61,489 bases of DNA, taken from NCBI GenBank assembly GCA_913056395.1, contig CAJXMG010000016.1, positions 1 through 61,489 of the forward strand, given 5' to 3'. The position numbers and the translations under genes are program-made. Of this stretch, positions 12,047 to 15,269 are shown one piece after another. This stretch comes from an uncultured bacterium. GTDB lineage: Bacteria > Planctomycetota > UBA8108 > UBA1146. The notes beneath the pieces are model-generated. The model had not been told where the DNA came from and did no database searches. It was given only the letters and a program-made list of their open reading frames with translations. Every line of letters starts with the position of its first letter. The stretch's first letter is position 1.

Positions 12047-14947
12047 TCACGATTCTTCCCGTTCATTTCCTTCAACATTGAGTCTCAACTTCAGGGGGAT
12101 GGCAAAGGTGCGCAGACGATCATCGCCGTCGTAGATACCACCGACCACCCGCGCCCTGAGAACGTACTCACCCTGCAAATCATCGCCGACCCGGAAGGTG
12201 GCAAAAGCGGAGAAATCTCCGTTGAGGGCAGCGACTTCGGTTCCCTGATAGGTCGCCTTCTCTTCCCCCTGATAAGTCCAGGCACTCTCACGGGTCAATA
12301 CCGTGTAATCCTTGCCCTTCTCGCGGATCTCCAATCCTTCGATCTGAATCCGACTCTCAAAAGCAGGACGGTCCGTCAGGCCCTGCTCGAGGAAGGAGAT
12401 GAACTGCTCAGAACTGTTGGTGAATGATTCCCGAGCCACTTCTAATTGGTCGCGACTGTCGAGGACGATGTAGGTCGGGTTCGCATAGTATCCGGTGATG
12501 CGGATCTGTTGCTCCCGATAGGTCGCCTCAATCTCACTGGTGGCGTCGTCGGTGTAGATCTCGAAGAGTTCGTATTGGCTGAGCAACTGCTCAACTTCAG
12601 ACTCGCGGAAAATACCATTTTCCATGAGTCGACAATTCTGTCAGGTGTGCCCCGTGAAATTGAGGAACAGCGGTTTGCGCGGCCGCTCCCCTGACTCCAT
12701 CTCCTGACGAACTTTTTCGAGCTCGGCGACAAAGTCCACATCCCCTTCCCGGTCGAGGTGCTTCCACGGCAGGGATGCTTTCTGGTGAAGACTCGGCACC
12801 AGCAGCTGGGCTTCGATGTTTTCATTCATGCGCCAGCCGGTGACGGCGTAGAAGCAGCTGCCGGCCCCCAGCAGGGTCAGCAACAGCAATCCGCCACGCC
12901 CCGCCGAAATCGATTTGACGGGAGAGTCGTGGGGAAAGCGCAACTTGCCGATGATATTGAGTGCCATCGCAACCAGAGTGAGCCCCCAGATCGCCATAAT
13001 CACTTCACGGTTGACGATGTGACCAAAGCGCCAGTAGGTCGCCACGGCACTGAAGAACTTCCACGCCGCCAGCAGTTCGATGAAACCGAGGACCACTTTG
13101 ACGGTGGAGAGCCAACCCCCGGAGCGGGGCAAACCGGTGAGCATCTTCGGGAACAGTGCCAAAAGGACAAAGGGGAAAGCGATGGTTGAGCTGAAAGCGA
13201 GCATGCCCACCGCAGCGAAGCCGGGCCCCTCTCCTGCTGCGAGGGCCAGCAGTGCCGCCACGATCGGTCCCACACAGGTAAAGGTGGTCACGGCAAAGAC
13301 GAGGCCCATGACCAGAACACTGGCGGCTCCGCCTCCTCCTCCACCACCGCCGACGCGATTGCGAATGAAGGCAGGCAACTGGATGTCGTAGTACCCGAAA
13401 AGGCTGAATCCAAAGACGATGAAGAGCACACCGATGGCCAGATTGACGTAGCCATTGGTGGCCATGAAGTTGGCACCCTCCTCACCGAGGAGAGCGGACA
13501 ACAAGAAACCGAGAGAAGTAAAGGAGACGACGATGCCCGCACCAAACAGGGCGGCCAGACCGATGACCCGTGAACGACTCTCATGGGCCTGCTTGGTGAA
13601 CACGCTGACGGTGATCGGAATCATCGGGTAGACGCAAGGAGTCACCAGGGCGAGGAACGCTCCACTGATGGCCAGCAGAATCACGCCGAGCAATCCCTGA
13701 TCCTCGGTTTCAGACTGAATGTCCCCTCGGAATGCGGGGATTCTTTTCTCCGGGGAAACCTTGCCATCGATCCGCAGGGTGACGATGTCTCCGATTCCGA
13801 TCGTAGAACCGGCTTCCAGAGTTGCGGTCAACTGCAAGTCATCATTGGCAAAGGTGGCCACGCGCGGGTCGCTCTCCTCAGCCAGCCCTGTGGCGGAACT
13901 TTCCTCTGCCCCAGACCCGCTTCCCACCGAAAGGTCGAGGTTCAACCTCTCTTCAGGCAGACACATCATGGCATCGCACGACATCGATTCGACGATCAGC
14001 GGCAGAGTGCCCGAGGTCAGTTCTTCTTCGCCCTCATACTGGAGGGTGACCTCGAAGCGGGCCTTGCGCTGGTGCTTGATACTGTTTCCGCCGATCAGGG
14101 GATCAAAACCCTTGTAGGGCGCGGTCAACTCCTTGACCTCCACCACTTTCAGGGAAGAACCATCCGCAGTGAGGAATCGGGTCGGGGTGCCATTTTCGGG
14201 ATTCATTTCAAGGCCGTAGATGTGCCAGCCCCGTTCGATCTCCGCTCCGACTTCCACCTTGAAGGTTTCACCCGGGATCACTTTCCCTAGAGTGGGAACG
14301 GTCCATTTCACGGGTGAATCATCCGCCTGGAAGGTCGCTGTCGCCGACTCTTTTCCGGGGGCCTCTGTTCCCACCGTGACTTCTGTACTGAGTACGACCG
14401 TATTGGGCAGCAAACACTCCTTGGCATCGCAGGCCTGGTAGGTCACCGAAACCGTTACCGTCCGCGGTCCCGGCTGCGCATCCTCCGGCGCACGCAGAGG
14501 GATCCTGAAGATCGTCTTTCCTTCGTGTTCGAGATAATACTCTTCACCGACTTCACGCTCATGGGGCTCGGGCTCCGAGATCTCTCCGTCAAAGAGCAGG
14601 TCCTTCGATTCGAGAACCACGATGGAGGTCGCCACCCCCCACTCCGGGTCCTGATTCAGGCCATAGATGTGCCAGCCCCGCTCCATTGCGGCCTCAAGTT
14701 CGAGCTGGACGAGTCCCCCTGGAGCGAGACCCTCTGCTTTTTTGAGGCTCACGGTGACCGGGTTGTCCGATCCGAAGATGGCATCACCAAATCCGCCATC
14801 TCCAAATCCTCCAGCCCCCAATCCGTCCTGCTCCAGTTGGTCGAGCAATCCCCCTCCCGCCCCGGGCTGGGCCGGCAGGGTTTGACTGAAGCCTGGCAGG
14901 GTTAACATCGTGATCAGGGTCAGGATCCCCAGCAGGATATTTTTCAT
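12047..14947 (-). CDS. dsbD: Selenocysteine-containing DsbD-family thiol:disulfide interchange protein (Sec at 12643-12641)
   Basis: Read through one in-frame UGA (12643-12641) this gives a 966-residue protein. It has a signal peptide (1-22), a Gly-rich stretch, and two DsbD-alpha-like domains with cysteine pairs (173/178 and 324/329). About eight membrane helices (420-700) carry the redox cysteines TPC438VYP and TC558VGP. The C-terminal thioredoxin domain has KPLFLNFTGHT followed by Sec769-Gln-Asn-Cys772, where Cys homologues have C-x-x-C, and a cis-Pro NPTYIV. About 90 further residues follow that domain. DsbD passes cytoplasmic thioredoxin electrons to periplasmic thiols. A GGAG site precedes the ATG at 14947. 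A stop-based annotation gives two pieces (12641-14947 and 12047-12625), neither with a complete active site. Confidence 0.93.
12600..12630 (-). promoter_or_regulatory. Candidate bacterial SECIS hairpin of the Sec-DsbD gene
   Basis: On the minus strand: outer arms GACTC (12630-12626) and GAGTC (12604-12600), a 2x2 internal loop, inner arms GGAAAAT (12623-12617) and ATTTTCC (12613-12607), and the apex GGT (12616-12614). The apex begins 24 nt after the UGA. Stem, internal bulge, distance and G-rich loop all fit bacterial SECIS elements, and the GGU apex is shared with the hairpin at 9854-9871. Confidence 0.8.
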
Positions 14948-14987: not shown

Positions 14988-15269
14988 TCAGCGGCTCGAT
15001 TCGCGGGGGCCTTCGATGGCTCGAACGATGTCCTCCTCGGGGAATGCACCTCCACCGGGGGTGTAGGCACGGACCCACTGGTCACCGACGACGAGGAAGG
15101 GAATTCCCTTCTTGCCGGTTTCCTGCTCGAGGCGTTCGGCGGCACCTTCCACTTCGTCGATATTGACGACGTCGTATTCGACTCCGAGTCCGTCCAGAAA
15201 GCGGACAGCAACGGTGCAATCAGGGCACCAGGGTGCGCTGTACAACTGGATCTTGGCTTGTTCACTCAT
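14988..15269 (-). CDS. Glutaredoxin-like protein
   Basis: A 93-residue small glutaredoxin of the NrdH/GrxC type. The active site is APWCPDC (Cys15 and Cys18), followed by the VEYDVVNID strand, GIPFLVVGD with the cis-proline, and YTPGGG near the C terminus. It lacks a signal peptide and should act in the cytoplasm, reducing disulfides with glutathione or thioredoxin reductase. Its stop is 40 nt before the start of the Sec-DsbD gene on the same strand, so the two probably form one transcript. The pairing suggests a common role in thiol reduction (inference). Confidence 0.92.
   Translation of the reverse strand: MSEQAKIQLYSAPWCPDCTVAVRFLDGLGVEYDVVNIDEVEGAAERLEQETGKKGIPFLVVGDQWVRAYTPGGGAFPEEDIVRAIEGPRESSR

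Follow-up and report, generated by a model that had tools for sequence, protein, structure and literature searches.

DsbD-type proteins are a main bacterial route by which reductant reaches the periplasm. In the window analyzed here (61,489 nucleotides, contig CAJXMG010000016.1 of an uncultured member of the Planctomycetota), a minus-strand frame resembling such a protein is interrupted by UGA, which raised the question whether this codon is decoded as selenocysteine (Sec). The original prediction had read the frame as a complete DsbD with Sec in the active site of its thioredoxin domain. Translation confirmed one frame (14947-12047) in which the single internal stop is the TGA of codon 769 (12643-12641), with 768 residues before it and the claimed 197 residues beyond it. 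Since TGA is also the terminal stop of the gene, it is not simply reassigned. ORF calling of the window, which stops at UGA, splits or truncates this gene, referred to below as Sec-DsbD. The following features were assigned to it and to its upstream neighbor.

14988-15269, minus strand: glutaredoxin gene, separated by a 40-base gap from the Sec-DsbD gene downstream of it (ORF calls)
12047-14947, minus strand: Sec-DsbD gene of 966 codons, followed by a TGA stop; the UGA of codon 769 is taken as Sec
14393-14722, minus strand: first DsbD_N (alpha) domain, residues 76-185, with Cys173/Cys178 (Pfam)
13889-14290, minus strand: second alpha-type domain, residues ~220-353, with Cys324/Cys329 (weak DsbD_N match below cut-off, alignment, AlphaFold2 model)
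12848-13687, minus strand: transmembrane core, residues ~421-700, with Cys438 (TPCVYP) and Cys558 (FTCVGP) (Pfam, alignment, model)
12398-12790, minus strand: DsbD gamma-like thioredoxin domain, searched as residues 720-850 and containing Pro824 (Pfam, PDB matches)
12641-12643, minus strand: UGA codon in frame, in the place of the first Cys of the thioredoxin C-x-x-C motif (U769-Q-N-C772) (translation, alignment)
12050-12370, minus strand: C-terminal beta-rich extension, residues 860-966 (model; no Pfam match)

Searches of the predicted protein against Pfam yielded matches to DsbD_N (PF11412, 45.8 bits, cut-off 25) and DsbD_TM (PF02683, 82.6 bits). A second DsbD_N match was weak (21.1 bits, below the cut-off), and Thioredoxin_7 scored 27.6 bits against a cut-off of 27 with the isolated domain and 22.7 bits, below the cut-off, with the whole protein. 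From the proposed full DsbD architecture, the first alpha domain, the membrane core and the isolated thioredoxin domain were thus recovered by Pfam, while the second alpha domain is represented by its Cys pair and a match below the cut-off. All Cys pairs of the DsbD relay are present (173/178, 324/329, 438/558 and U769/C772), and Cys438 and Cys558 are conserved to at least 90% in 48 aligned Sec forms (alignment A1, 48 rows out of 81 references, in which the window's own gene stands for locus L019).

The AlphaFold2 model of the protein (mean pLDDT 82.7, pTM 0.62) contains a helix at residues 2-16. Its top PDB match by E-value in Foldseek was the N-terminal domain of ScsB from Proteus mirabilis (6c29, E 8.5e-6), a loose likeness to the N-terminal region of the window protein (TMt 0.39, 12% identity); ScsB itself is Cys-based. 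The thioredoxin domain matched DsbD gamma (2fwe, E 2.3e-3, TMt 0.78; also 1vrs_D), which we take to be cd02953. Most of the matches ranked between ScsB and DsbD gamma were Ig-like or adhesin proteins with low TM-scores, and we read them as a general beta-sandwich resemblance. With E. coli-type DsbD (PRK00293) the window protein shares an alpha N-terminal domain, a two-Cys membrane core and a C-terminal thioredoxin domain, but Sec takes the place of the first Cys of C-x-x-C, the alpha-type domain is present twice, and the protein is extended at its C-terminus. Against the NCBIfam model PRK00293 it reached 132.8 bits, below the cut-off of 330, and it is therefore assigned to the DsbD/ScsB family and not to the PRK00293 subfamily.

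In the genes of the taxonomic family of the window genome (f1), the extension runs for about 107 residues past the thioredoxin domain and is predicted to be all-beta. From the UGA on, f1 genes measure 191-199 codons, compared with 85-122 in 83 of 85 other distinct closed-frame Sec forms. A longer C-terminus (259 codons from the UGA on) was also seen in a different lineage (loci L049 and L122). Of 14 f1 loci, the window's own included, 12 have the glutaredoxin gene upstream, which suggests that both genes are perhaps co-transcribed as an operon; at the remaining two loci (L031 and L032) an open frame reaches the locus end.

In the context FTGHT-U-QNC, the UGA aligns with the first Cys of the C-x-x-C motif in the solved relatives 3f9u and DsbD 6dnu, which bears out the claim that it replaces the first active-site Cys. 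3f9u, a Bacteroides cytochrome c biogenesis-related thioredoxin domain, was the best PDB sequence match and has a similar active-site block (FTGYGCVNCRKME), but it carries Cys where the window protein has Sec. The window protein combines the thioredoxin fold and domain with U-x-x-C instead of C-x-x-C. Further downstream, Pro824 is invariant in the 48 aligned Sec forms and presumably represents the cis-Pro of this fold.

The window gene was subsequently compared with eight f1 relatives on both sides of the UGA. After the UGA, dN/dS was 0.02-0.36 in seven of the eight comparisons; synonymous sites were saturated in the eighth (L024). Before the UGA it was 0.01-0.23 and lower than after it in all seven usable comparisons, indicating that the downstream half evolves faster, yet is constrained. 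These ratios point to purifying selection on the sequence beyond the UGA and to translation of the downstream half, and together with the conservation of this half and the invariant Pro824 they agree with the proposed continuation of coding and homology past the codon. They also bear on the view that the UGA is mainly a stop or regulated stop, yielding a DsbD that lacks its thioredoxin domain, or that an ordinary residue is inserted there, full-length Sec protein being a minor product in either case. In favor of this view, some termination at Sec codons is common, and an in-frame ATG lies just past the UGA at 12625; a restart there, however, would leave a protein without the active-site motif, and the selection on the downstream half argues against a mere stop.

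Young pseudogenes, too, show one stop within an otherwise long open frame, and the TGA could have arisen by sequencing error or nonsense mutation, or mark a decaying gene. When the window genome and 58 relatives (59 genomes in all) were searched, a gene copy with one internal TGA was detected in 14 of the 16 f1 genomes, the window genome among them; the copy of genome G004 is split over two contigs, and no Sec-DsbD match was obtained in the f1 genomes G001 and G007. By context reading, the TGA lies at the same U-x-x-C site in those relatives' loci that match the motif. One further locus with a "TGA inside" (L039) was rejected, as its TGA is a terminal stop and no C/U-x-x-C-R motif was found.

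With the exact pattern F/W-T-G-x-x-UGA-x-N-C-R-x-M/V-E, 99 stretches were found in genome_contigs (84,980 species genomes), all with TGA in the motif, whereas by our own arithmetic about 0.35 matches are expected at equal base frequencies. Read on from the UGA, 97 of these frames close within the locus and are no shorter than 85 codons; the other two are cut by the locus end. One stretch (L104) belongs to CP036296.1, the complete genome of the cultured isolate Pla86. The titles name Planctomycetota for 85 stretches and no phylum for 12. The remaining two, L059 (Bacillota) and L097 (Proteobacteria), are identical around the codon to the f1 loci L025 and L031, and the titles of these public MAG records therefore look wrong. 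On these titles and identities, Planctomycetota look like the only phylum with the Sec form as defined by the exact pattern, which misses forms with other flanking residues. Among viral contigs the UGA active-site pattern had 0 matches, and tblastn gave no match in plasmids. Because the pattern itself fixes FTG/WTG, Asn at +2, Cys at +3, Arg at +4, Met/Val at +6 and Glu at +7, the invariance of these residues is not counted as evidence. Duplicates, identical over 180 nt around the codon, and rows too short to one side of it or the other were dropped before counting, so that the Sec totals below vary (94 for folding z, 95 for pairs, 97 for resampling, 98 for position -6 and 91 for the tree); L039, L046, L047 and L048 lie outside the pattern and were left out of the counts.

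Outside the pattern, L046 carries the Sec-DsbD variant GKPIFLEFTGFSULNCRTNE and, 488 codons on in the same frame, a second U in VVDFWGFWUPPCREM, which from its sequence is perhaps a separate Sec thioredoxin-like protein. Two Sec-DsbD stretches (L069 and L103) were located on different contigs of one MAG (Vin_7).

In 392 Planctomycetota genomes the UGA pattern was present in 61 and the corresponding Cys pattern (TGY) in 27, both patterns in none and neither in the rest; a backward control pattern gave 0 matches in the same phylum search. The 27 genomes match the earlier statement that Cys homologues have C-x-x-C at this site. A quick tree was computed for 118 proteins (91 Sec and 27 of 28 Cys forms, active-site residue masked). 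On it the Sec/Cys label required 8 changes, at least 5 of them on starred (well-supported) branches, compared with 24.5 for shuffled labels; several rows sit on long branches and their placement is unsure. Sec and Cys forms occur as sister pairs (L066 with L165 and L140 with L166, the Sec form named first), suggesting recent exchange. Many genomes that were assembled separately share this codon at this site, which is a strong argument against error or decay; a sequence error at 12641-12643 is not supported. Purifying selection on both sides of the TGA and the Cys of relatives at this site argue in the same direction, and we regard error, nonsense mutation or decay as having almost no chance of being correct.

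The window genome (2.77 Mb, 95.1% complete) was searched for Sec-decoding genes. All four that the prediction of a Sec codon implies, selA, selB, selC and selD, were found: profile matches were obtained for selA (529 bits), selB (364.6 bits) and selD (347.6 bits), and ARAGORN called a tRNA-SeC with anticodon TCA. Contig C5 holds selA, selD and tRNA-Sec close together; selB is on C13. The selD gene contains one in-frame TGA, giving SCAGUAAKL, and so appears to be a second Sec-using gene of this genome. Across the phylum, selA exceeded the cut-off in 238 of 392 genomes (275 at E 0.001), namely in 59 of the 61 Sec genomes versus 179 of the 331 others (Fisher 3.8e-12), with the over-cut-off status of some of the 59 inferred from E ≤1e-117 among the matches listed. 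In the search of the 61 Sec genomes none was detectable in G012 (91% complete) and G229 (67%). In the same-genus genome G001, the selA match (C70:13854-15215) contains one TGA and one TAA, perhaps an assembly fault. The co-occurrence of Sec-DsbD with selA is a further point against the UGA being mainly a stop.

Immediately downstream of the UGA a hairpin was predicted, with the following parts.

12600-12630, minus strand: hairpin predicted as a SECIS element of the bacterial type, spanning nt 11-41 downstream of the UGA (folding; codon-choice and Cys-form controls)
12623-12607, minus strand: apical stem within nt 18-34 after the UGA (folding)
12616-12614, minus strand: hairpin loop GGU, nt 25-27 after the UGA (folding)

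The predicted fold energy of nt 1-45 after the UGA in the window is -15.0 kcal/mol. A small apical loop containing G is described as a feature of bacterial SECIS elements in the available text of PMC1088965, and the window hairpin lies near the UGA and has such a loop. For the 54-nt stretch that follows the UGA in 94 distinct Sec genes, folding gave a mean z of -1.27 relative to synonymous recodings (57% below -1), compared with means of -0.08 to -0.52 at eight other sites of the same genes and of -0.47 in 28 Cys genes (Sec versus Cys, MWU p 1.2e-4), although these z-scores overstate independence because the sequences are related. The six pairs from 18-34 to 23-29 were complete in 53 of 95 Sec genes versus 1 of 28 Cys genes. 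When the protein was held fixed and codons were redrawn by each gene's own usage, 55 of 97 Sec genes had all six pairs where 27.2 were expected (0 of 400 replicates were as high), and 1 of 28 Cys genes where 2.0 were expected. Watson-Crick pairs deviated from the resampling expectation by +11 sd in Sec genes and by -0.9 sd in Cys genes, and without the window's family 47 of 84 genes were complete (26.1 expected). The relatedness of the sequences inflates these hairpin statistics, and 42 of the 97 Sec genes miss one or more of the six pairs. In a shuffle test on 80 non-f1 sequences, the percentage paired, the cells changed on both sides and the covariation score exceeded all 500 shuffles; pairs changed on both sides (484 of 500 as high) and further pair types (87 of 500) were unexceptional.

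The hairpin is favored by synonymous codon choice in Sec genes and not in Cys genes, and the proposed hairpin at SECIS distance holds under both the synonymous-codon and the Cys-form control. A covariance model (R1) was additionally built from the 80 non-f1 Sec hairpins. Its best match in the window was the hairpin itself (17.8 bits, the next match having 16.7), and a search of the selD locus with R1 gave no match. R1 was dropped as a test, since it gave Cys genes equal or better scores (up to 32.6 bits); shared coding sequence, we think, dominates the model, and the covariance check suggested with the original prediction was not diagnostic, our own model leaving Sec and Cys genes unseparated. 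With Rfam gathering scores as thresholds, one tRNA was the only match in the window. Since hairpin pairing beyond the codon-choice expectation is seen only in UGA genes, and in view of the selection and selA data given above, termination or ordinary read-through as the main fate of the UGA is very improbable. Decoding of the UGA as Sec is well supported by most of these sequence-based tests, with the covariance model as the exception, and we consider it highly probable that the gene encodes a Sec-containing member of the DsbD/ScsB family.

It was further asked in how far such a protein is new. A metagenome table from 2008 (GOS) lists a marine Sec family "Trx-like 2 (Thiol disulfide interchange protein)" with UxxC and cd02953, comprising 22 sequences as the columns of the accessible table were read (PMC2398784). 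A Sec thiol:disulfide interchange protein is named for Syntrophus and Geobacter in the available part of PMC1794560, and that of PMC4807772 reports selenoproteins in the planctomycetes P1 and P2. Sec-DsbD might therefore be a Sec protein already catalogued under this name. The marine family, also entered in PMC13188914 as PF13098 with UxxC, shares with the window protein Sec at the first UxxC position and a thioredoxin-type domain, and the isolated window domain weakly matches PF13098 (22.5 bits, cut-off 27). On the other hand, neither Syntrophus nor Geobacter occurs in the titles of the 99 stretches, and in the accessible descriptions, by which alone the families were compared, membrane architecture, DsbD identity and a distribution in Planctomycetota are not given for the catalogued family. 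We rate this reading a serious one, at somewhat below an even chance.

A second known relative is TsoB (NF045694, a rhodanese/DsbD fusion-like selenoprotein), whose model matches the membrane core of the window protein (residues 415-638). TsoB has two Sec in UxxxxU and, by name, a rhodanese part in the text available, whereas the window protein has one internal UGA. An identification as TsoB was rejected, with 117.1 bits against a cut-off of 805, no Pfam rhodanese match at E 0.001 and no UxxxxU. Apart from TsoB, the selenoprotein catalogue in Table 1 of PMC13188914 has no DsbD entry, and no Sec-DsbD model was matched in NCBIfam at E 0.001. A full-length membrane Sec-DsbD spread through one phylum was not found in the papers searched. 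The suggestion of a new selenoprotein family is therefore borne out in part: within the papers searched it stands for the full-length membrane form, and for the Sec thioredoxin-type domain PMC2398784 offers a partial precedent. Sec-DsbD is a Sec form of a well-known membrane reductase and apparently a speciality of the Planctomycetota.

Computation supports the frame, its conservation, the Sec machinery, selection on the hairpin and the interchange of Sec and Cys. In the mechanism that we propose, SelB and tRNA-Sec encoded in this genome would decode UGA 769, with guidance from the SECIS hairpin inside the reading frame just downstream. In E. coli, electrons pass from thioredoxin to the membrane domain, to cDsbD and to nDsbD, the hub for periplasmic clients (PMC7347389, available text). 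By analogy, electrons from cytoplasmic thioredoxin would reach the membrane residues Cys438/Cys558, then Sec769-Cys772 of a periplasmic thioredoxin domain and last, via the alpha-domain pairs 173/178 and 324/329, periplasmic clients. That Sec is actually inserted, which way the electrons flow, a location in the periplasm and any gain from selenium are what we infer.

The pKa of Sec is far lower than that of Cys, and by the original prediction Sec in the active site would lower the pKa and might speed electron transfer. In E. coli cDsbD the attacking residue is Cys461, whose pKa of 10.6, the highest reported for such a Cys, is raised by Asp455 and Glu468; a variant with a lower pKa is described as more prone to reoxidation (PMC3961690, available text). 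U769 occupies the place of Cys461, and the place of the buried Asp455 (position -6) is taken by Asn763, by counting along the sequence. Position -6 is Asn in 81 of 98 Sec forms and Asp in 21 of 28 Cys forms, and an acidic residue is found there in 15 of 98 Sec versus 21 of 28 Cys forms (Fisher 5e-9). A phylogeny-aware pair test of this position gave no association (5 usable pairs), and the Cys forms L165 and L166, sisters of Sec forms, also carry Asn. Co-evolution of position -6 with Sec is not claimed on this basis; a retuned active site is a lead and not a result, and the contrast between Asn and Asp may reflect lineage history.

Taken together, Sec-DsbD may be a long-lived, phylum-level selenoenzyme of the Planctomycetota at a point where reductant leaves the cytoplasm, with an active site retuned for Sec, a picture that we put forward tentatively and hold to be rather less probable than not. 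Annotation that ends at the UGA would split or truncate this gene. Sec at the place of Cys461 would amount to a natural experiment on the idea of a raised pKa of the attacking Cys. If the picture is true, periplasmic thiol homeostasis of Planctomycetota would depend on the supply of selenium.
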